A DNA stretch of 49,313 nucleotides from positions 1 through 49,313 of the forward strand of contig JAJRQC010000164.1 in NCBI GenBank assembly GCA_024280455.1, given 5' to 3'. The position numbers and the translations under genes are program-made. Positions 29,858 through 41,795 of the stretch are shown one piece after another; the stretch's first letter is position 1, and each line of letters starts with the position of its first letter. The notes under the pieces were generated by a model that was given only the letters and a program-made list of their open reading frames with translations, was not told where the DNA came from and ran no database searches. The stretch is from Deltaproteobacteria bacterium. Lineage in GTDB: Bacteria > Desulfobacterota > Desulfobulbia > Desulfobulbales > Desulfobulbaceae.

Positions 29858-30898
29858 ATGTTGCGTGTCGGAATTATTGGTGCATCGGGATATACCGGTG
29901 TTGAACTGACAAGGATTCTTTCCGGTCATCCGGAATGTGAGCTTACAGTCGTTACTTCCCGGCAGTACGCCGGCAAGGCGCTCTCTTCCGTTTTCCCGAG
30001 TCTGCGCCAGCGCGTTGATCTGGTGTGCGAAGCCCCTGAGCTTGACCAGATTATGGGAAAAGCGGATTTTTTCTTCACAGCGGTTCCTCATAAAACCGCC
30101 ATGGATATCGTCCCCGCCCTTCTGGATGCCGGTAAAAAAGTCGTCGATTTGAGTGCCGACTTTCGGTTGCACGATGCCAAAGTCTACGAGCAGTGGTACC
30201 AGGCCCATTCCTGTCCGGATCTCCTGCAGGAAGCGGTCTACGGCCTGCCGGAACTGTATCGGGCCCAGGTTGCTCAAACAGCGCTGACCGCCAATCCCGG
30301 CTGCTACCCGACCTCGGTTATCCTGGGCCTGGCCCCGCTTTTGCGGGAACAGCTCATTGACCCAAAAACCTTGATCATCGACTCCAAGTCGGGCACTTCC
30401 GGAGCAGGCCGCACAGCAAGCATGGGCACACTGTTCTGCGAGGTGGCCGATGGGTTCCGGGCCTATAACGTCGGTGGCAGCCATCGGCATATTCCGGAGA
30501 TGGAACAGGAACTGACCACCCTCTCGGGTGAGGCAGTCACCATCTCGTTTACCCCGCACCTGCTGCCGATCTCACGGGGAATTCTCAGCACCATGTATGC
30601 GTCTCTGAGTGAAAACTGCGACATGAAGGCCATCCAGAGCCTATATGAACAAACCTATGCAGACGAACCTTTTGTCCGGGTCCTTCCGGCCGGAACCTTG
30701 CCGGCAACCCAGTATGTCCGGGGCAGTAACTGCTGTGACATCGGCCTGCAGCAGGACCAGCGCACAGGCCGGATAATCGCCATAAGCGCGATTGACAACA
30801 TTGCCAAGGGAGCAGCCGGCCAGGCAGTGCAGAACATGAACCTGATGAACGGCTTCCCGGAAACGACCGCACTCATGGGAGCACCCTTCTTCCCCTGA
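29858..30898 (+). CDS. argC: N-acetyl-gamma-glutamyl-phosphate reductase ArgC
   Basis: ArgC reduces N-acetylglutamyl phosphate to the semialdehyde in arginine synthesis. The 346-residue protein has the NADP-binding [17 protein letters not shown], the catalytic Cys in [13 protein letters not shown], and [11 protein letters not shown] 29858 has AAGGA 7 bases upstream. Its stop overlaps the truA start by one base, so the two are likely coupled. No other arg gene is in the window. Confidence 0.96.
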
Positions 30899-31697
30899 TG
30901 GACCGCAACATACGCTTGGTCATCGCCTTTGACGGCACTGCGTACAGCGGCTGGCAGCGTCAAAAAAAGAGGCCCACGATCCAGGGCTCTATTGAAAAAA
31001 AACTTACCATCCTCTGCAGCGAACCCGTCTGTATCCACGGGGCAGGCAGAACCGATGCCGGGGTTCATGCCCTGGCCATGGTGGCGCATTTCCAGACTAC
31101 AGTCGGGCGCCCCCTCTCCGCCTTTACCAGAGGCCTCAACAGTATGCTTCCCCATGACATCAGAATCCTTGAGGCACGTGAAATGCCCTCTGATTTTCAC
31201 AGTCGTTACCAGGCTCTTGCCAAAACCTACCGCTACGATTTTTTCAGCGGCGATATCATGCTGCCGACCCGCCGCTTATACGAGGCTCACCTGCCCGGCT
31301 CTTTCGACCTTGCTGCCTGTCAAAAGTGCCTCCCGCTTCTCATCGGCAGTCACGACTTTGCCAGCTTTGAGGGTGCCGGCTCCAGAGATCCGTTGCAAAA
31401 AACCGGCAGAGGTGCCATCCGCACGATTTTCCAGGCCCAATGCAGGCCAAAACAGGCCAACCGGACCACTGGTCCTTTTCCATAACCGGCGACGGCTTTC
31501 TTCGCCACATGGTTCGCAATCTTATCGGCACCCTCAGGCAGGTGGCCTTGGGTAAAATCTCTTCAGGTGACTTTGCCGCTATTCTTGCCGCCCGCAACCG
31601 ACACCAAGCAGGGCCGACAGCTCCGGCCTGCGGATTATTTCTGGAGCAGATCTACTACAACAAACAGGATACTCCAGGCCTGCGGGACACACCATGA
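30898..31697 (+). pseudogene. truA: tRNA pseudouridine synthase TruA, one frameshift
   Basis: TruA makes pseudouridine at tRNA positions 38-40. The first frame (30898-31485) has VIAFDGTAYSGWQRQ and the catalytic Asp in GAGRTDAGVHAL. It runs to RTIFQAQ and then loses similarity. The conserved C-terminal part (GDGFLRHMVRNLIGTLRQVA...CGLFLEQIYY) continues in the frame ending at 31697. One extra base in the A-run 31449-31452 would restore an intact about 266-residue protein. Both ends keep coupling (argC at the start, ATGA overlap with maf at the end), so recent mutation, an assembly indel or a slippage event are all possible. Confidence 0.88.
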
Positions 31698-32305
31698 ACC
31701 AACCGCTTTTTACAACCAACAGGAATATCATCCTTGCCTCTGCTTCACCTCGCAGACAATCGTTTCTCCAGGAACTTGGCCTGCAGTTCACAACAAAGCC
31801 GGCAGCTATTGATGAAACCCCGGAACCAGAGGAATCGGCAGAGGATTTCGTCCGGCGCATGGCCGCAGGCAAGGCTGAGTCCATTGCCGGTCTCCGGCCC
31901 GATGCGGTTGTCATCGGTGCCGACACGGTTATCTCCCATCATGGAGAAATCCTTGGTAAACCGGCAAGCCGGGCCGATGCCCTAACCATCCTGCAGAAAC
32001 TGCAGGGAAGCAGCCATATCGTCATGACCGCCCTGGCCCTCTATTGCAGGAAAGACAACCTCGCGACCACCCTTGTCGGGGCAACAACAGTCACATTCGG
32101 CCGTTTCCCAAAAGACGTCCTGGAATCCTATATTCGCTCGGGTGAACCCATGGATAAAGCCGGCGCTTATGCAATTCAGGGACAAGGTGGATTCCTGATT
32201 GAACAAATCAACGGCTCCTGCAGCACGGTCATAGGATTGCCGATGAATGAACTCGTAACCCTACTGCTCAGCCACGGAGTCATCTCTCCCTACCGGGCGG
32301 AATAA
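31694..32305 (+). CDS. maf: Maf family nucleoside triphosphate pyrophosphatase
   Basis: The 203-residue protein has LASASPRRQSFLQELG, VIGADTVI and DKAGAYAIQGQGGFLIEQINGS, hallmarks of Maf/YceF house-cleaning pyrophosphatases, which hydrolyse non-canonical nucleotides. Maf, YhdE and YceF subtypes were not resolved. Its start overlaps the truA stop (ATGA), suggesting an argC-truA-maf operon. Confidence 0.94.
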   Translation: MNQPLFTTNRNIILASASPRRQSFLQELGLQFTTKPAAIDETPEPEESAEDFVRRMAAGKAESIAGLRPDAVVIGADTVISHHGEILGKPASRADALTILQKLQGSSHIVMTALALYCRKDNLATTLVGATTVTFGRFPKDVLESYIRSGEPMDKAGAYAIQGQGGFLIEQINGSCSTVIGLPMNELVTLLLSHGVISPYRAE

Positions 32306-32318
32306 AAGGGTATCGAGC

Positions 32319-32348
32319 TTGACAATCCTTTCGTTTTCATGGTATTTT
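32319..32348 (+). promoter_or_regulatory. Possible promoter for the polysaccharide/signalling cassette
   Basis: TTGACA (32319-32324) and TATTTT (32343-32348) are 18 bases apart in the 300-base gap 32306-32605 after maf. The gap holds no gene. A long leader of about 250 bases would precede the sugar transferase; a GAGGCACC direct repeat lies in it. Confidence 0.5.
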
Positions 32349-32605
32349 TTTATAATCTTAATGCGTTAAAGAGCCTGATCAAACTGCGCTCTTAGAAGTC
32401 TCAACAAGCAGATGCCCGTAAATGATCAGAGGCACCGTATGAGGCACCTTATTAGCCTGCTTTATTTCCGCGCACGGCCGAACCGACCGCATAGAGCAGA
32501 CTAGAGATGAACTGCGGCGCCTGTGCGAATCTACCGCCCCCTGTCCGCGTACAAACGTTTGGGCAAGAAAAACCATAAAGGTACAAATTCTGCGCTGAAA
32601 TATAG

Positions 32606-33988
32606 ATGCCCACTATTCTGAAAAAATACTACCCTGTACGGAATATTCTCTTTTTCCTCGGGGAAGGACTACTCATTTTCCTGACCATCATGCTGGTGTA
32701 CCTTGCATTCAGCGGATGGGCCATTTTCTGTATAGATTTCTTCGCCGATGCCGTCCGGGCCGGGGTGGTCACCGTTATATTCCAGCTCACGCTGTATTTT
32801 TTCGACCTCTATGATTTAAGCCGAACCTCCATCCCCTCGGAGACCGCTATCCGCATCGTTCAATCCTTCGGGGTCGGCTGCGTCCTGCTCGCCTTTGTAT
32901 ACTATTCTTTTCCTCCTCTTGTCATATCAACCAAAATATTCTGGATCGGCTATCTGGTTATCTGCCTGGTCCTTACCGGCTGGCGGGTACTCTATTACTC
33001 GGTTCTTGAAAAACGTCTTTTTTCCCAGCCGATCCTGCTTCTCGGCACCGGAAAAATCGCGGTTGAAATTGCCCAGGAGATTGAAGAGAAACAGGATTCC
33101 GGCTATAAAGTTGCCGGATTTATCGGTGACAACCCACCAGTATACAACCCCCACAATGCCCCTCTTATTGAGCAGAAAACACCACTGAAGACCAGCTGTG
33201 ACCTGTATCATGCAGAACGTATTGTTGTGGCCCTGGATGATCGCCGAGGCACCATGCCGATTCATGACCTCCTGACCTGCAAGATTCGCGGGGTTGAGAT
33301 CGATGACGGCATCACCTTTTACGAGGCCATTACCGGGAAAATTCTGGTGGCAAACGTTAACCCGGCCTGGCTTATCTTTTCCGAAGGCTTCAGATCCAGT
33401 CGCCTCAGCTATTCCATCAAACGAATCATGGATATGGCACTCTCCTCTTTCGGCCTTCTTGTATCGCTGCCGGTGACCGTTATCACCGCCGTACTGATCA
33501 AGATTGAATCTCCCGGTCCCGTCTTCTATACCCAGGAACGGGTGGGAGAACGGGGCGAGACCTTTAAGGTCATAAAATTTCGTTCCATGCGGGATGATGC
33601 GGAAAAGGATGGTGCGGTCTGGGCCATGAAGAATGATACCAGGGTCACACGGATAGGCAGGATTATCCGTAAAATTCGCATTGATGAGATTCCCCAGATG
33701 TGGAACGTGCTCAAGGGCGAGATGAGTTTTGTCGGGCCACGACCGGAACGGCCGATGTTTGTGGAAAAACTGACCACATCCATCCCGTACTACTCGTTGC
33801 GCCATTCCGTCAAACCCGGTATTACCGGGTGGGCCCAGGTCTGTTATCCCTATGGCGCCTCCGAAGAAGACGCTCTGAGAAAGCTGGAATACGATCTCTA
33901 CTACATCAAGAATCAATCCATTTTCATAGACCTTCTCGTCATCTTCAGGACAATTAAAACCGTCCTCTTTCAAAAAGGTTCACGCTAA
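32606..33988 (+). CDS. Undecaprenyl-phosphate sugar transferase (XrtA/PEP-CTERM EpsB-like)
   Basis: The 460-residue protein has four or five N-terminal membrane helices (residues about 13-125), a Rossmann-like region (PILLLGTGKIAVEIAQEIE) and a C-terminal bacterial sugar transferase domain starting with KRIMDMALSSFGLLVSLPVT. Catalytic-domain motifs are GPVFYTQERVGERGETFKVIKFRSM, DEIPQMWNVLKGEMSFVGPRPERP and PGITGWAQV. It should load the first sugar phosphate on undecaprenyl phosphate for exopolysaccharide. The overall form matches the family linked to XrtA exosortase loci, but no exosortase gene is visible. It lies 4 bases before the HEAT/cNMP/PilZ gene. Confidence 0.9.
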   Translation: MPTILKKYYPVRNILFFLGEGLLIFLTIMLVYLAFSGWAIFCIDFFADAVRAGVVTVIFQLTLYFFDLYDLSRTSIPSETAIRIVQSFGVGCVLLAFVYYSFPPLVISTKIFWIGYLVICLVLTGWRVLYYSVLEKRLFSQPILLLGTGKIAVEIAQEIEEKQDSGYKVAGFIGDNPPVYNPHNAPLIEQKTPLKTSCDLYHAERIVVALDDRRGTMPIHDLLTCKIRGVEIDDGITFYEAITGKILVANVNPAWLIFSEGFRSSRLSYSIKRIMDMALSSFGLLVSLPVTVITAVLIKIESPGPVFYTQERVGERGETFKVIKFRSMRDDAEKDGAVWAMKNDTRVTRIGRIIRKIRIDEIPQMWNVLKGEMSFVGPRPERPMFVEKLTTSIPYYSLRHSVKPGITGWAQVCYPYGASEEDALRKLEYDLYYIKNQSIFIDLLVIFRTIKTVLFQKGSR

Positions 33989-33992
33989 ACCG

Positions 33993-36926
33993 ATGACAAC
34001 CAATCAGCTAACAAAAAGCCAGGCCTTCACCGAGTTACCGGTCAGGTTGTACTCAGCCCTGCGTACTATCCGGATCTATCCGCCGTCAAACCCGCAGGTC
34101 ACGAAAACTACGGAAAAAGTCATTGCAATTCTCGGCCAGCTCCTGGAACGTGAAGGGACGGAGATTACCCTTGCCTCTTCAGAACAAAAGATTCTGGTTA
34201 ACGGCAACCCGCTGCCTGAAAAAGATCAACAACGTCCGCAGATTCAAGGCTTGATCGAACTCCTCAGCACCCTGCAAATTCATGCCCTGACCTTTCAGAA
34301 CGATTTTACCGCATCGGACTGTATTCGCTTTCTTGAACTGCTCTCGGCTGCCGGCGGCAACATGCAGCCCGGACAGCCGATAAAAGAGCTTTTACAGGAG
34401 GCCGAACTGAATTCAGTCAGCGTTGATGAAAAACGCTACGTTGCCGTCCATGAAGGCGAGCAAGTCGTCACTGAAGATCAAATAGGTCCCGGTGGCGGGC
34501 TGCAGATAGATGACGGCGATCCGGCCGGATTCATCCTCGGCAAGACCTCCGGAGACGGGGCCGGACTTTCAACAGCGGCTCTGTCACAGCTGCTTGCTTC
34601 CGACAAGAATGAAGATACTTCTTTATCCCACCGACAAATCATGCACCAGGAGCAGCAGGACAAGGAACAGCAGCTCAACCAGGGCCAGATACGTGAAAAC
34701 ATCAAACTGCTGCTTTCCGGTGACCATACGGTTCTGGGTGACGATCAGGTTGTTCAGACACTGCCGGCCAGTGTACAACGGCTGCTGCAGCATAATAAAA
34801 ACGAAGCTGCTGACAAACTGTTAATCCAGATGGTAGCTGGTCTGCAGAAAAAAGACACCGAAGTGCGCAGAGGAAGCGCAGAAGCTCTGGGAAGAACAGC
34901 CGCCGCTCTGGTTCAGGCCGAAGAATGGCAACGGCTGGACAGACTTCTTCCTGCACTTAAACAGGCCCTGCCCTTCATGGAAGCCCCTCAGGCCGGCAGA
35001 CGAACCTTGCTCGCACTTGAACAGCTTACCCGTCACCATCTCACCCACAAGGCGTACAACCGTGCCATCAATGCCCTCAACATACTCTTTGATCTGACCA
35101 TGCATTCCCAGGGCAGCAACTCCGCGCTCTATGATCTCGCGCAGACATGTCTGGTCAACTTAGCCGAGCCCGCACTGCTTGATAACTTGCTGGAAAATAT
35201 ACAAACCGGCAATGAAAAAAATGATAACTGCTGGTACCTGATCTCGCGGATGGGGGCAGGGGCGGCTAATTTCCTCATGGAAAGACTCGGCAGGAGCGAA
35301 AGCAGGGAAGAACGGGAACTGCTGCTGAGACTAATAGGGGACATCGGCAAACCCGCCCGTGACGCATTACTGCTTTTGCTCAGGCAGGAGTCTCCCTGGT
35401 ATGTCACCCGCAACATAATCCGGCTCTTGAAAAATGTTGGTGATGCCGACTGCTTTACAACTATCGCCCCTTTTCTTGGCCATGAAGAACTGCGGGTTCA
35501 GCAGGAGGTGATTCAAACCCTGGGGGTCATCGGCGGGACAGCAAGAAAGAAATTTTTCCTGCAGGAGCTTGAAAGCGCATCCGACGATCTGAAACCGCTG
35601 GTCATCAGACAGCTGGGAAAAATCCATAACGAAAGCATTGTTCTGCCGTTGACCGATCTCCTGCAGTCTTCCGCCGGTCCTCCACACCAGGCAAAAGAAC
35701 AGCTCCAGATAGAAATATGTGTCGCCCTTGTCCGTCTCGGCTCCAAACAATCCCTGGCCAGCTTGAAAAAAGTGGTTCAGACAAAAAAGATACCGGGCAT
35801 CGAAGATTACAGCCCAAAGGTTCTCGCTGCCGCAGAGAGTGCCCTGCAGGCTATCAGGGCCGGTTCCAAAGTGCTGACCGATCCCATCCAGCAGCCGGAA
35901 CCCACTTCTCATACACACCTGACCAGAAAAAATGATCCCCTGGCGGAAAAAGAGGCCTCCATCTTTCGCAGGGCTGCCCGGGGAAAAGTAGAGGAGGCAA
36001 AACAAGAGCTGTATAATCTTATCATTTCCTGCGCTGAAAAAAAGGATTTCGCCAATGCCGAACGTCTGCGGGAACGAATCTATGAAATCGACCCCATGGC
36101 ATTAAGCGAAATTATCCGCTCAGGTGAAATTATAGAAAAAGAAAAGACCGGGGCTGTCAGCCGGAACCGGCTTGATACCTGGTCACGGTTACTCAAAAAA
36201 TTAAACAATGTTGAATTCAGTGCCATTTATCATGAACTGCAGGAACGAACATTCGCCCCAGAGGAGATCATTGTCCGGCAGGGAGATAAAAACGATGAGC
36301 TCTATTTTATCAATCAGGGAAGTATTAAAACTTCCTACAATAAAGATGGGCGCGACATTTTTGTCAGCAGCATGAACAGTGGCCAGATTATCGGCGAGAA
36401 CTTTTTTGACGCCTCTTTCTGGACGGTTACCCTGACGGCCCTGACCTCGGTCAACATCTCCGTCCTCAAGTGGGACAGCTTTCGGCGCTGGCAGGACGAG
36501 TATCCCGGACTGGAAGCCAAGCTGCAGAGCTTCTATAAGCAGTGCGATACAACCCGGCAACTTCTTGAAAAAAAAGGACTGGATCGCAGGCGATATGAAC
36601 GGACCAGGCTCTCTCGTAAAATTCAGCTCCAGTTGACCGATCACAACAACAAGCCCATTGGCCGCGGTTTCCGAGGTGAGCTGGCCGATATTTCAGAAGG
36701 CGGCCTGGCCTTTCTCATCCGAATTTCAAAAAAAGAGAATACCCGCCTGCTGCTGGGCCGGAACATGCGGATAACAATTCCTGTGGGTGGAGAGCCCGGA
36801 CATCTGCAGTTGTATGGTCTTGCCATAGGCATACAGCCCTATGAGCTCCTGGAAAGTGATTTTTCCGTGCATATTAAATTTCCGGAATTACTGGATGAAA
36901 AGACTCTGTTCCAGGTTCTCGGTTAA
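33993..36926 (+). CDS. HEAT-repeat protein with cyclic-nucleotide-binding and PilZ domains
   Basis: This 977-residue cytosolic protein has three recognisable parts. The N-terminus (about residues 10-130) resembles the small domain preceding HEAT arrays and signalling domains. Residues about 255-620 are HEAT-like helical repeats (for example VRRGSAEALGRTAAAL, ELRVQQEVIQTLGVIG). Residues about 733-835 form a cNMP-binding fold (RTFAPEEIIVRQGDKNDELYFI, IIGENFF), but the phosphate cassette lacks the usual Arg (FWTVTLTAL). Residues about 865-977 are a PilZ domain with RRYERTR and DISEGG. Both an N-terminal scaffold and two second-messenger modules are therefore present. It starts 4 bases after the sugar transferase. 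Confidence 0.85.
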   Translation: MTTNQLTKSQAFTELPVRLYSALRTIRIYPPSNPQVTKTTEKVIAILGQLLEREGTEITLASSEQKILVNGNPLPEKDQQRPQIQGLIELLSTLQIHALTFQNDFTASDCIRFLELLSAAGGNMQPGQPIKELLQEAELNSVSVDEKRYVAVHEGEQVVTEDQIGPGGGLQIDDGDPAGFILGKTSGDGAGLSTAALSQLLASDKNEDTSLSHRQIMHQEQQDKEQQLNQGQIRENIKLLLSGDHTVLGDDQVVQTLPASVQRLLQHNKNEAADKLLIQMVAGLQKKDTEVRRGSAEALGRTAAALVQAEEWQRLDRLLPALKQALPFMEAPQAGRRTLLALEQLTRHHLTHKAYNRAINALNILFDLTMHSQGSNSALYDLAQTCLVNLAEPALLDNLLENIQTGNEKNDNCWYLISRMGAGAANFLMERLGRSESREERELLLRLIGDIGKPARDALLLLLRQESPWYVTRNIIRLLKNVGDADCFTTIAPFLGHEELRVQQEVIQTLGVIGGTARKKFFLQELESASDDLKPLVIRQLGKIHNESIVLPLTDLLQSSAGPPHQAKEQLQIEICVALVRLGSKQSLASLKKVVQTKKIPGIEDYSPKVLAAAESALQAIRAGSKVLTDPIQQPEPTSHTHLTRKNDPLAEKEASIFRRAARGKVEEAKQELYNLIISCAEKKDFANAERLRERIYEIDPMALSEIIRSGEIIEKEKTGAVSRNRLDTWSRLLKKLNNVEFSAIYHELQERTFAPEEIIVRQGDKNDELYFINQGSIKTSYNKDGRDIFVSSMNSGQIIGENFFDASFWTVTLTALTSVNISVLKWDSFRRWQDEYPGLEAKLQSFYKQCDTTRQLLEKKGLDRRRYERTRLSRKIQLQLTDHNNKPIGRGFRGELADISEGGLAFLIRISKKENTRLLLGRNMRITIPVGGEPGHLQLYGLAIGIQPYELLESDFSVHIKFPELLDEKTLFQVLG

Positions 36927-36949
36927 AAAACAGGTACCCGGGACATAGA

Positions 36950-38719
36950 ATGGCCGATGCGATAACCAGCTTTTACCAGGAACAATTCCCTGATGCAAAG
37001 ACGAAAAATAATATTTTGCAGACGCCCTGTCCCTTCTGCAGCAGCCGACAGATGGCGGATCTGGGAACGCTGATCATCTTTCTTAATCATACCAGCTACT
37101 TTCACGGCTACTTTCGCTGTACGAACCGCTGCGTGCCCGGTGGATTTCCCCTCCATTTTGCCCGCCTGAACAAGCTTCGTCTCCTCAACGTTCCCGGGTT
37201 TGATCCGGATCGGGATTACAGTGCATCGCAGCTGGAATACCCGATCAAAAACATAAACGGTGAGATTTTAGACTTCACGGATAAGATGACCGACCAGCTC
37301 TATGATCGGTTTTCAGAGATGGGTATCAGCCGGGAAGTACTTGCAGAAATGAAGGTCGGCTATAATGGCCGCTATCTCATCTACCCCTATGTTCAGGATG
37401 ACGGCAACTGTTACTCGGCCCACTGTGTCCATCCGGACAAGCCGGTGGACAGCTTCTGGTATGGTGATGAACAATTCTTCCTGGAACCATTTCGTATTTT
37501 CAACAGTGGTGACATTAAAAGCTGTGAAAACGGCAGTCTGGTTATCACCGAAGGCGAAGAAAACCTGCTGGCCTTAAAAGAGCTCGGCCTGCCCTGCATC
37601 GCCCTGGCGAGTATCGCAGACCTTGCCCAACTTGATCCCGATCGCCTGCAGTGGCTGAGAACACTGTTTCTTTTCGTCAATCATAACCCGGAATCGGAAA
37701 CTGCGGCCCGCCGTTTTGCCGAACGTGTCGGCTACAAGGTTCGTCTTGTTCGCTGGCCGGAAGAGTACCCGGCCAAGTATACGATAAAGGCCCTGGCAAG
37801 TGACAGGCAAGAAGAATTCCGCTCAACCGCCTTTACCCTGATTCAGGGCGCCCGTTCTTTTTCTCCTTTCGGATCGCCTGAACATGAACACCTGCGTTTT
37901 ACCGAACAGCTGCAACTGGATGCGGGTAGCAGTTACGACTCCATGCAATCGGGTTTTCCGCTCCTGGATCAGGCCCTGGGAGGGCTCCACGGAATAAATA
38001 TTATGGGGGGTACTCCAAAGGCCGGCAAGTCCTGCTTTTTTATCCAGATTGCCTCCAACATGGCCCGTAAAAAGATCCCGGTGATCTACTATGATTTTGA
38101 GAACGGTCGGCAAAAAATTTACCTGCGGACCCTCAGTCGCCTGAGTCAACTCTCAACGAAGATGATTAAAAAAAGAATCGGAGATAAAAATGAAAAAATA
38201 CGGCTCGATAAAGCTCAGCAGGAATTGAAAGACATGCTGCCCTGGTTCAGGGTCGTGACTGATCGAAAATTAAATCCGGAACTTATGCGGCGCCACATTG
38301 ATTTCCTCCGCCATGAAACCCACTCCGACTATACCCTGGTGGTTATTGACAGCCTGCACAAACTGCCATTTAAAGATTTCTCCGAACGGAGAACAGGTAT
38401 AGACGCCTGGCTGCGTCAGTTTGAAGCCATTCGTGATGAACTCAACGTTTCCTTTCTGATTATATCAGAGCTTTCCCGCGGTACCGGCGGTCAATATGAT
38501 GACCAGCCGCACATGGGTTCTTTTAAAGGTTCCGGCGATATTGAATACTCGGCCGACAATGCCATGATCCTGATGCCCAAATGGGATCCATTCGACACCA
38601 GCCCTCCGGAAAACAGACTGAACGAACTGTGGCTCGTTGCCAGCCGTGAACAGAGCCCGGGCAGGATAAGCTCCTATCGGCTGGACTTTCCCTACTGGGG
38701 ATTTGTAGAAGAAGGATAA
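36950..38719 (+). CDS. Primase-helicase-like protein with zinc ribbon, degenerate TOPRIM and DnaB-like ATPase
   Basis: The 589-residue layout follows phage T7 gp4/Twinkle. Residues 27-61 are a zinc ribbon (C27-P-F-C30 and C57-T-N-R-C61). A primase-type core with a TOPRIM follows (ITEGEEN, E201), but the usual DxD is replaced by N244-H245-N246 in LFVNHNPES. From about residue 330 a RecA/DnaB ATPase has Walker A GGTPKAGKS (about 353-361), Walker B LVVIDS (D467), and the DnaB motif SRGTGGQ..GSGDIEYSAD, then a C-terminal Arg finger region. Helicase/ATPase activity looks intact; primer synthesis looks doubtful. It begins 23 bases after the HEAT/PilZ gene, an unusual partner for a replication-type enzyme. 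Confidence 0.85.
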   Translation: MADAITSFYQEQFPDAKTKNNILQTPCPFCSSRQMADLGTLIIFLNHTSYFHGYFRCTNRCVPGGFPLHFARLNKLRLLNVPGFDPDRDYSASQLEYPIKNINGEILDFTDKMTDQLYDRFSEMGISREVLAEMKVGYNGRYLIYPYVQDDGNCYSAHCVHPDKPVDSFWYGDEQFFLEPFRIFNSGDIKSCENGSLVITEGEENLLALKELGLPCIALASIADLAQLDPDRLQWLRTLFLFVNHNPESETAARRFAERVGYKVRLVRWPEEYPAKYTIKALASDRQEEFRSTAFTLIQGARSFSPFGSPEHEHLRFTEQLQLDAGSSYDSMQSGFPLLDQALGGLHGINIMGGTPKAGKSCFFIQIASNMARKKIPVIYYDFENGRQKIYLRTLSRLSQLSTKMIKKRIGDKNEKIRLDKAQQELKDMLPWFRVVTDRKLNPELMRRHIDFLRHETHSDYTLVVIDSLHKLPFKDFSERRTGIDAWLRQFEAIRDELNVSFLIISELSRGTGGQYDDQPHMGSFKGSGDIEYSADNAMILMPKWDPFDTSPPENRLNELWLVASREQSPGRISSYRLDFPYWGFVEEG

Positions 38720-38931
38720 AAAAACCGATCAGGGCAGTCAGACACGGTTTCGAGTTACAATATTGAACCTAAACACACCTTCCCCAACCGAACAGGTCGC
38801 GCTACGGCTTTTCTCCCTGAATAACTTCACATCACCTTCAATATTTTTACAGGTAGACAGGGAGTTACGAGCTGTCCTCAATGATTCCAAACATCGGATA
38901 CCATCAGGCACTCTTTTTGAAAGGAATAGGT
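38720..38931 (+). other. Gap before the PilZ-cyclase pair
   Basis: This 212-base gap has no convincing gene. It probably holds the promoter for the PilZ and adenylate cyclase genes, which would make them a separate transcript, but no clear -35/-10 pair was found. Confidence 0.4.
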
Positions 38932-39306
38932 ATGCAGATCGAAAGACGAAAATTCCAACGTCATCCCCTGCGTTTTCAGCTTGAAATACGGGCCAGCAGT
39001 CAAAACGGGAAGCCGTTTGTTGAAAAAGCGCAACTGATTAACATTTCCGGCGGCGGTGCACTCTTTCACTCCCTGCTGATCGATCAATATTTCCAAGGGC
39101 AGGTTGTGGAGGCAAACATCATTCTTCCTGGAACGCCTGCCATGAAAGGGAAGATGAATACACGGGCAACAGTCGTTCGTCTTATCCAGGAAAGTCGCAG
39201 GCTGGCAGTTATTTCCATACACTTTCTTGATCCACTTAAACTCTCCAGGGATGAAAAAATTCTGAACAGCATAAGCAGGCAACATACCGAAACTCGCCTA
39301 ACATGA
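38932..39306 (+). CDS. PilZ domain protein
   Basis: The 124-residue protein begins MQIERRKFQRHPLRF, with RRKFQR giving the RxxxR motif. LINISGGGALF gives the second c-di-GMP-binding element. It is a single-domain PilZ receptor or adaptor. ATG 38932 has AAAGGA upstream; the open frame continues to an ATG at 38881 but that extension lacks PilZ features. It overlaps the adenylate cyclase start by 4 bases. Confidence 0.85.
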   Translation: MQIERRKFQRHPLRFQLEIRASSQNGKPFVEKAQLINISGGGALFHSLLIDQYFQGQVVEANIILPGTPAMKGKMNTRATVVRLIQESRRLAVISIHFLDPLKLSRDEKILNSISRQHTETRLT

Positions 39307-40472
39307 CCAGAAAACAGCAACAAACATTTAGTTTTTATAGAAAAATACGGATCAGCCTCGGCTTGATGGGCATCCTTCCATTCCTGCTTGTCATCTATCT
39401 TTTCCTGACGGAAAAGATTACCCTCTCCAACAGCATGATCATTTCGTCCGCCCTGATTCTTTTTTCCATTCTCATCGGGTTTTCCCTACTCCGGCAGTCA
39501 GCCGACCAGTTATCAATGCTGGCCCGGGAAACAACCACTTTTGAAAAAACCGACATCATACAGCCGGTTCAGCTCAATATTGATGGAGAGCTCAAAGACA
39601 TTGCCACCAACTTCAACACGCTTGCTGAACGGCTCACCCGGGCAAACCATGATATTCAGGAACAAAACATTCAGCTCCTGCGTTATGCAGATGATCTGGC
39701 AAGCTCCTATGACAAACTTAAAAAAGAAGAACAGCTGAGGGCCCATCTCAGTCGATACATCGGCAACGACCTCGTTGACCAGATCATGCAGTCCAGCGAT
39801 AATCTGCTCCAGAAAAATCAACGCAAGGTGATTACGGTCATGTTTGCCGATATTCGTTCTTTTACCGCCATTTCAGAGCAGATGGAACCCGAAGATGTAG
39901 TTGCCATGCTCAATGAGTATTTTTCCATCATGGTCGAGATTGTTTTTAAACATAACGGCATGCTTGACAAGTTTGTCGGAGATCAGCTTATGGCCGTGTT
40001 TGGTCACATGTCCGGCGAGACCCAGGGAGTGAAAGACGGCCTGCAGGCAGCACTCGAGATGCAGGAAGCCACTGATCAACTCATGAGAAAAAGAGCAAAA
40101 AAACAGCAGCCGATTTTCCAGGTCGGTATTGGAATAAACACCGGCAGCGCCATCATCGGCAATGTCGGATCGGAAAACAGAATGGATTACACGGTGATCG
40201 GTGATACCGTCAATGCCGGAGCCAGATTTGAAAAACTGGCGCAGGGTGGAGAAATAATAATCGGTGAACAAACTTTTATCCAGCGCCCCAGGTCCATCAA
40301 GATGAATAAACGGTTGAGGCTTAAGGTCAGGAACCGTTCAATGCCGGTTGTCTGTTACATGGTCGACAGAAAAGAATGTATGGTCACCCTGCAGCAGCCG
40401 GAAAAGATCACAAATCGTTTCCCCAAAGGGCTGTTTGATGCATCCCCGGAGGAAGTTCCTGCCGGCTGTTAG
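39303..40472 (+). CDS. Membrane-anchored class III adenylate cyclase
   Basis: Two N-terminal membrane helices (about residues 16-35 and 42-62) are followed by a HAMP-like/coiled segment and a class III cyclase domain. Metal-binding aspartates lie in MFADIRSF (D183) and FVGDQ (D227). The substrate-specifying residues are K223 (DKFVGD) and T297 (YTVIGD), the adenylate cyclase K/T pair, and N304 and R308 in TVNAGARF complete the catalytic set. The 389-residue protein should make cAMP. It overlaps the PilZ gene by 4 bases. A C-terminal about 50-residue tail has no recognised role. Confidence 0.93.
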   Translation: MTRKQQQTFSFYRKIRISLGLMGILPFLLVIYLFLTEKITLSNSMIISSALILFSILIGFSLLRQSADQLSMLARETTTFEKTDIIQPVQLNIDGELKDIATNFNTLAERLTRANHDIQEQNIQLLRYADDLASSYDKLKKEEQLRAHLSRYIGNDLVDQIMQSSDNLLQKNQRKVITVMFADIRSFTAISEQMEPEDVVAMLNEYFSIMVEIVFKHNGMLDKFVGDQLMAVFGHMSGETQGVKDGLQAALEMQEATDQLMRKRAKKQQPIFQVGIGINTGSAIIGNVGSENRMDYTVIGDTVNAGARFEKLAQGGEIIIGEQTFIQRPRSIKMNKRLRLKVRNRSMPVVCYMVDRKECMVTLQQPEKITNRFPKGLFDASPEEVPAGC

Positions 40473-40484
40473 TCCCGCCGACAA

Positions 40485-41795
40485 TCATTCTTGTTCGGAT
40501 TTCCAGCGCTCGAGTTCTTCCAGAGCCAGTTGAGCCCGGTACCCTCCCCTTTCTTTTTTCCTGATCTTTTTCCCCAGAGGGGGAAATAAGCCGAAGTTGA
40601 CATTGGAGGGTTGAAAACGGGCAGGATCGGACTCGGTCAGGTGATGAATCAGGGCCCCAAGTGCGGTTGCCGAAGGAGGCGCGCTGATCTGTTTTCCGCA
40701 TGCAAGGCGTGCGGCGTTCATTCCGGCCAGCAGCCCCATGGCTGCGGACTCAACATACCCTTCCACTCCGGAGAGCTGCCCGGCCAGAAACAGGCTGGGA
40801 CGTTTTTTCATCTGCAGGGAGCTGTCCAGCAGTTCAGGAGCGCAGATAAAGGTATTGCGGTGGATGGACCCCAGACGAACGAACTCGGCTTGTTCAAGTC
40901 CGGGAATGGTACGAAAAATCCGTTCCTGTTCTCTGTAGGTCAGCTTGGTCTGAAAACCGACCAGGTTGTACATGGTTTCCCCCAGGTTTTCCGCCCGCAG
41001 CTGAACAACGGCGTGGGCGACCTTGCCGGTTTCGGGATGGGCCAGGCCCACCGGTTTCATGGGGCCGAAGCGGAGGGTATCCTTGCCCCGCTCACACATA
41101 ACCTCAATCGGCAGGCACCCTTCAAAATATTTTGTATCCTCAAAACTCTTCAGGGGCACGGTTCGGGCGCTGCCCAGCATTTCGATAAATGCTGCATACT
41201 CCTCCTCGCTCATCGGGCAGTTCAGGTAGTCGCCCGGATTGTCATCATCCCAGCGCGACTTACGGTAGATAATATCCATATCCAATGATTCCGCACTGAT
41301 AATTGGTGCAATCGCATCGTAAAAGGCCAGGTGTTTTTCACCGGTGAGGGCGACTAAACTTGCCGTCATCGCCTCGGAGGTCAACGGTCCGGTGGCGAGG
41401 ATAACCGGAATATCAGAGAGCGGCAGCTCAGTCATTTCCCGGCGGATAATGGTTATCTTTGCATGCTCTCCAATGATTTGTGAAATATACCCTGCAAAAC
41501 GAAGACGATCAACAGCCAGGGCGGAACCGGCAGGGACAGCGGTTGCATCAGCAGCCCGGATGATGAGCGAATCCAACTGCCGCATCTCCTCTTTAAGCAG
41601 TCCGACCGCTGAACCGATGGCATTGGAGCGCAGGGAGTTTGAACAGACGAGTTCAGCCAGCAGCTCGGATTCATGGGCCGGGCTGAACCGGGTCGGCTTC
41701 ATCTCGTACAGGTCTACGCTCAAGCCTCGTTCCGCCGCCTGCCAGGCAGCCTCACAGCCGGCCAACCCGCCACCGATAATTAACACGTCACTCAT
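40485..41795 (-). CDS. trmFO: Folate-dependent tRNA uracil-54 methyltransferase TrmFO
   Basis: TrmFO makes ribothymidine 54 in tRNA using methylene-THF and FADH2, in place of SAM-dependent TrmA. The 436-residue protein has the FAD motif [41 protein letters not shown], and [21 protein letters not shown]. Cys residues used in the flavin-iminium chemistry are within the family pattern. Its start overlaps the 3D-domain lipoprotein stop by 4 bases, implying coupling. The stop is 12 bases from the convergent adenylate cyclase. Confidence 0.96.

Follow-up and report, generated by a model that had tools for sequence, protein, structure and literature searches.

Two probable modules in a five-gene run of a Desulfobulbaceae genome: a sugT-HEAT-priH block and a pilZ-cyclase cassette

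The five same-strand genes considered here lie in a stretch of 49,313 nucleotides (the window), listed as contig C11 in a draft genome of 4.15 Mb and 173 contigs. They are probably best understood as two modules that became neighbours: a block encoding a sugar transferase (sugT), a HEAT-repeat protein and a primase-helicase-like ATPase (priH), and an independent cassette in which a stand-alone pilZ gene is followed by the gene of a membrane cyclase. The pairing of pilZ and cyclase is conserved, and the motifs of both proteins are intact. Together, a membrane cyclase and a PilZ protein specified by a single unit would convert directly between c-di-GMP and cAMP signals, and the combination of PilZ and a 2TM module, with a cyclase or HD-GYP output that appears exchangeable, is a more interesting object than the five-gene run as such. 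A second point of note is the conservation of a Twinkle-like protein without primase residues across Desulfobulbaceae, Desulfocapsa-type genomes and cable bacteria (Candidatus Electrothrix).

Layout of the locus

The arrangement given in the preliminary description was confirmed: five same-strand ORFs are present (32606-33988, 33993-36926, 36950-38719, 38881-39306 and 39303-40472), with gaps of 4 nt between sugT and the HEAT gene and 23 nt between the HEAT gene and priH, and with a 4-nt overlap (ATGA) between pilZ and the cyclase gene. Domain scans agreed with the proteins named there, giving Bac_transf/TIGR03013 in the first protein, HEAT_2, cNMP_binding and PilZ in the second, and DnaB_C, PilZ and Guanylate_cyc in the remaining three.

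32606-33988, + strand: sugT, polyprenyl-phosphate sugar-1-phosphate transferase, TIGR03013 (XrtA/PEP-CTERM type), from ORF and domain scans
33993-36926, + strand: HEAT protein, with N-terminal domain, HEAT repeats, cNMP-fold domain lacking the usual Arg, and PilZ domain
36246-36491, + strand: cNMP_binding domain of the HEAT protein, residues 752-833; phosphate-cassette segment without Arg
36582-36881, + strand: PilZ domain of the HEAT protein, residues 864-963; RxxxR and DxSxxG
36950-38719, + strand: priH, T7 gp4/Twinkle-like; Zn-type Cys4, TOPRIM without DxD, DnaB/RecA core
38932-39306, + strand: stand-alone pilZ of the cassette; the ORF opens at 38881, likely start at 38932
39303-40472, + strand: membrane class III nucleotide cyclase; residues 1-142 form a 2TM + linker module that is also found in the HD-GYP protein of genome G129

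The pilZ start at ATG 38932 is more likely than the one at 38881, because it is preceded by AAAGGA and agrees with the start in the closest relatives; the gap between priH and pilZ is therefore about 212 nt. A consensus scan of this gap detected no + strand terminator and no sigma-70-like promoter; priH and pilZ may be linked in one transcript. Rfam detected no RNA element at gathering score in positions 32000-41000. Upstream of the run, truA (30898-31697) is broken by an apparent frameshift into a 195-aa ORF and an overlapping 85-aa ORF that holds the C-terminal part; it is a single ORF in genome G003.

The pilZ-cyclase cassette

Full-length orthologues of the cyclase occur in 9 of 57 relatives and in 5 of 395 genomes of the phylum (own genome counted). 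The pairing with PilZ was surveyed within Desulfobacterota, and cyclase neighbourhoods were examined in 11 genomes, with G002 (C203) and G006 (C115) left out. A PilZ gene stands directly upstream of the full-length cyclase gene in 10 of these 11 (the window, G001, G003, G004, G005, G018, L094, G186, G210 and G381), and the two genes overlap by 4 nt in 8 of the 10, the others having gaps of 6 nt (G381) and 37 nt (G210). In G046, the full-length cyclase has no PilZ upstream and is located away from priH. PilZ-like ORFs are also absent upstream of the weaker, partial cyclase matches in three further genomes (G342, G139, G163). The pair directly follows priH in the window and in G001, G004 and G005, all of the same genus, as well as in L094; it lies away from priH in G018 and in three genomes of other families, two of which have a T2SSE/MshEN ATPase gene next to it. 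Thus, the second module is proposed to be an independent cassette, and in the window and its close relatives a local functional link between priH and the cassette may exist.

The window PilZ carries the motifs RxxxR (as RKFQR) and [DN]xSxxG (as NISGGG), which a published account also gives (PMC6416229); in the PilZ of G018, S replaces N/D in the second motif. The stand-alone protein is thus a probable c-di-GMP sensor. The best solved relative of the cyclase is CyaB (3r5g, E 3.2e-34), and in an alignment with this enzyme the metal-binding residues D183 and D227 as well as K223, T297, N304 and R308 are found at CyaB-like positions. Lys and Thr residues of this kind in class III cyclases indicate adenine-type specificity. 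By residue criteria the protein is a class III adenylate cyclase, for which cAMP production is predicted. Read from the sequence by eye, its N-terminus seems to contain two hydrophobic segments joined by only a very short loop, which would make a protein of the cytoplasm, for instance PilZ, the natural input of the cyclase. In the proposed mechanism, PilZ would bind c-di-GMP, partner the 2TM N-terminal module and change the cAMP output; that the two proteins are in direct contact, and with what sign, we infer.

In one genome, G129, HD-GYP takes the place of the cyclase as output: a PilZ gene of the same family precedes that of a 337-aa HD-GYP protein, which shares 51% identity with the window cyclase over residues 1-142 (E 7e-43). 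With a cut-off of E <= 1e-12, the PilZ profile (A4) matched five of the 395 phylum genomes, four times beside a cyclase and once, in G129, beside the 2TM-HD-GYP protein. The profile of the N-terminal 2TM module (A6) gave matches at E <= 6e-63 in six of the 395, and the best match beyond these was at 5.5e-16. Since all six close A6 matches and four of the five A4 matches were rows of their own profiles, with only the G129 PilZ being new, these counts indicate a sharp family border and specificity and are not to be read as independent discovery. Eleven second-tier 2TM loci (L210-L220, E 5e-16 and worse) have no PilZ-like ORF within 500 nt upstream by a pattern check, which is a weak one as it met a wrong-frame ORF at L212 and misses a PilZ of the G018 type; on this weak check, generic 2TM sensors were dropped as additional members of the cassette.

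The best reading of these sequence comparisons is that PilZ passes the c-di-GMP signal on to a membrane module whose output is exchangeable, here an adenylate cyclase. We tentatively extend this to a proposal that we regard as possible, somewhat short of probable: a PilZ adaptor family would have co-evolved with a small 2TM module as a modular c-di-GMP input device, to which can be attached either a class III cyclase, giving cAMP as output for c-di-GMP as input, or an HD-GYP domain, which would answer the same input by hydrolysing c-di-GMP as feedback, with ATPase genes of the T2SSE/MshEN kind (pilus or type II secretion type) alongside in three genomes. Such ATPase genes neighbour the cassette in G129, G186 and G381, together with a T2SSF gene in G129; a gene for an HD-GYP protein is a neighbour in G210. 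The loci of G381 and G186 (L189, L190) have a common run of a HAMP protein, a conserved unknown, a response regulator, the T2SSE/MshEN ATPase, PilZ and cyclase, the first three having been recognized by eye.

The block between maf and trmFO

The first module would be part of an old chromosomal block of Desulfobulbales type, located between maf and trmFO. Full-length priH orthologues were found in 35 of 57 relatives (51-100% identity, own genome counted) and in 17 of the 395 phylum genomes. In a public genome set, 207 loci encode a priH relative; among the best 80 of these 207, which were kept, the closest named relatives are Desulfobulbus/Desulfobulbaceae bins, with a top identity of 91%. The 52 of these 80 loci that have at least 5 kb upstream were used for the HEAT count (28 with less were left out), and in 43 of the 52 a HEAT gene is present upstream of priH on the same strand, the other nine being without HEAT. 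Since some public-set loci are on the same contigs as loci in the genomes with G handles, the counts for the two sets were kept separate and not summed. HEAT and priH are within 500 nt of each other in 33 of the 43 linked loci, and the distances, measured between match ends and not ORF ends, are 8-294 nt in 33 loci. In 10 of the 43 a HerA-like gene on the opposite strand stands between the two. This gene encodes a HerA/DUF87-like P-loop ATPase of about 800 aa (e.g. L084:2792-5233, − strand), and it is missing from that place in the window.

The sugT gene is present in only a few loci. Its product scores 503 bits against a cut-off of 393 for TIGR03013 and would prime a polysaccharide. It is located directly upstream of the HEAT gene in L088, L118, L126, L158, G003, G012 and G018. 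Among the 40 loci whose upstream sequence reaches 9 kb or more, four have sugT. In a quick, midpoint-rooted priH tree of 53 rows with two long branches (L144, L159), HEAT linkage required four changes and the presence of sugT five, and both HEAT-linked and sugT-bearing loci are found in the two main branches. Because sugT is always in the same slot, the simplest reading is an ancestral maf-sugT-HEAT-priH block from which sugT would have been lost repeatedly. In G012 (L071), sugT is spread over two overlapping ORFs with an apparent frameshift around residue 89. An exosortase gene is present in the genome of the window, but on another contig (C157); G018, which is 85% complete, has the TIGR03013 transferase and gave no exosortase match.

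It is unlikely, in our view, that the whole arrangement is a matter of synteny, with HEAT, priH and the other neighbours joined only by inherited order and each gene acting alone. Part of the evidence does agree with it. The maf gene is found upstream in 32 of these 40 loci, all 32 of which also have HEAT, and trmFO is found downstream in 33 of the 58 loci where 3 kb or more of downstream sequence is available; in G015, G024, G025, G032 and G033, HEAT is still beside maf with priH elsewhere. Furthermore, G012 (a single contig, 97% complete) carries sugT and HEAT and lacks priH, and G014 (also a single contig, 99% complete) carries priH and lacks HEAT, while G027 was left out of this comparison, its priH being at a contig end. 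Since each gene occurs without the other in near-complete genomes, the linkage of HEAT to priH may be inherited order. However, the short distances between HEAT and priH fit co-transcription, and inherited order leaves unexplained why PilZ is linked to the 2TM module in four families and at different chromosomal sites. Under the two-module reading, a functional tie among sugT, the HEAT protein and priH remains a putative one.

The HEAT protein had been described as combining a cAMP-type and a c-di-GMP-type module, and only the latter part is likely to hold. In an alignment of 58 rows (the window and 57 ORFs, of which L158 supplies two and several are cut by contig ends), the PilZ domain has RxxxR in all 58 and [DN]xSxxG in 54, so that both are present in 54 rows, including the window. 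An Arg in the phosphate-binding cassette is a hallmark of cAMP-binding CNB domains, and at the usual position it was found in none of the 58 rows; an Arg at the end of the segment occurs in two of the 58, a Lys is present within the segment in 10 Desulfocapsa-type rows, and a WT pair is conserved in 56 of 58. Because of the retained PilZ motifs, c-di-GMP binding by the HEAT protein is likely, and cAMP sensing is unlikely because the usual phosphate-position Arg is missing. The protein would thus most likely serve as a c-di-GMP-binding scaffold with a cNMP-fold domain that has lost the usual mode of cAMP binding, and this domain could bind a different ligand. Foldseek searches with the HEAT model gave mostly matches to cNMP domains and repeats with low overall TM, and for that reason no whole-protein relative is named. 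Residues 123-212 of the window protein have pLDDT < 50. Among relatives, the shortest ORF has 305 aa (L129) and the longest 2200 aa (L115), contig ends cutting off part of the set.

Other makers and receptors of cAMP are possible in the genome of the window, since 12 matches to cNMP_binding are present there, of which three or more carry a canonical-looking Arg (two by pattern, one by eye), along with four Guanylate_cyc matches, one with a stop. The cAMP made by the cyclase would act through such other receptors and not through the HEAT protein. One of the cNMP domains with a canonical-looking Arg (L200, G000:C150:66064-66315) lies at the C-terminus of an ORF that looks like a T2SSE-type ATPase and is possibly a cAMP-responsive pilus or secretion motor.

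That the primase site of priH is damaged, as stated in the preliminary description, proved correct and is a trait of the family. The acidic pair DxD forms the metal site of TOPRIM domains; it is present in 0 of 34 sequences, and D.D anywhere in the segment is found in 1 of 53 rows, out of register. In contrast to this loss, the four Zn-type Cys, K360/S361 (Walker A), the catalytic Glu E384 and D467 (Walker B) are invariant in 53 of 53 sequences. The domain scan gave a DnaB_C match and a Toprim_3 match below cut-off. The DnaB arginine finger is a KxR motif; near its place priH has SRE, invariant in 53 of 53 in a region where the alignment is ambiguous, and a role of SRE as its equivalent is suggestive only. 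In Foldseek searches, the AlphaFold model (mean pLDDT 87.7, pTM 0.60) was nearest to T7 gp4 (top match 5ikn, E 1.1e-19), followed by DnaB and Twinkle, with a poor superposition on Twinkle 7t8c (E 1.4e-17). VIA-align gave Z 29.2 over 253 residues (rmsd 2.6) with the DnaB-type core 3bgw and Z 24.7 over 454 residues (rmsd 7.3) with the whole of T7 gp4 (1q57). Since Cys4 and the ATPase motifs are kept, DxD is gone and the model is nearest to gp4, priH is predicted to be a gp4/Twinkle-like ATPase without primase chemistry. According to a published account, animal Twinkle likewise lost primase activity through sequence changes (PMC3610141).

One system or two, and comparison with known systems

The preliminary description had joined all five genes into a single system, in which the cyclase would make cAMP, the HEAT protein would read both cAMP and c-di-GMP, and priH would power or gate polysaccharide priming by sugT. 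The conservation of order expected from this proposal is found in part: HEAT and priH mostly stay together, sugT precedes HEAT in several distant genomes, and PilZ and cyclase form a true pair. Along with the tight spacing in the window and the position of the cassette after priH there, in its three congeners and in L094, this is what speaks for integration. Against it are the occurrence of the cyclase in 9 of 57 relatives versus 35 of 57 for priH, its location elsewhere in the genome in G018, G046 and other families, the missing cAMP-type Arg in HEAT, and the opposite-strand HerA-like gene, which in 10 of the 43 linked loci stands between HEAT and priH. Separation of priH, HEAT and sugT in relatives had been named in advance as the sign of a chance grouping, and on this point the outcome is mixed, HEAT and priH being mostly joined, yet each occurring without the other, in G012 and G014 respectively. 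We therefore rejected the five genes as one system, for which we see little probability, in favour of a block and an independent cassette.

A Pycsar-like anti-phage system of a cyclase and an effector with a cyclic-nucleotide domain was also rejected and is highly improbable; in Pycsar, the linked effector carries a TIR or TM part besides that domain. Among PADLOC models, those for PycC match the cyclase (the best at 1.7e-29) and one for PycTIR gives a weak match (1.5e-3) to the cNMP domain of the HEAT protein, but the PycC match falls on the common class III domain, the cyclase keeps the adenine-type Lys/Thr residues, Pfam finds no TIR domain in the HEAT protein, whose cNMP domain has no usual Arg, and the cyclase is missing from most HEAT-bearing relatives.

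A literature search found no description of a conserved Twinkle-like protein without primase residues such as priH, and none of a pilZ-2TM cassette, which is a weak absence since few subscription journals were covered. Excerpts of four papers (PMC8683041, PMC11139211, PMC8316039, PMC6416229) mention no class III cyclase whose gene is coupled to one for PilZ, again a weak absence.

Residues 752-833 of the HEAT protein resemble cAMP-binding CAP_ED/CNB domains in fold and Pfam match, and differ from them in the missing phosphate-cassette Arg and the conserved WT. Like T7 gp4 and Twinkle primase-helicases, priH has a Zn-type Cys4 and a DnaB-like core, and these proteins are its top Foldseek matches; unlike them, it has no TOPRIM acidic motif, and it is further set apart by the invariant SRE near the place of the DnaB KxR and by being chromosomal and lineage-restricted. 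The window cyclase keeps the metal Asp, Lys, Thr, Asn and Arg of class IIIb adenylate cyclases of the Pseudomonas CyaB type, whereas its N-terminal part is a short 2TM module (the membrane part of CyaB is larger) and a PilZ gene overlaps its start. The PilZ protein itself shares RxxxR and [DN]xSxxG with stand-alone receptors of the YcgR/MotL kind, but differs from these in having a 2TM cyclase or a 2TM HD-GYP enzyme as its genomic partner.
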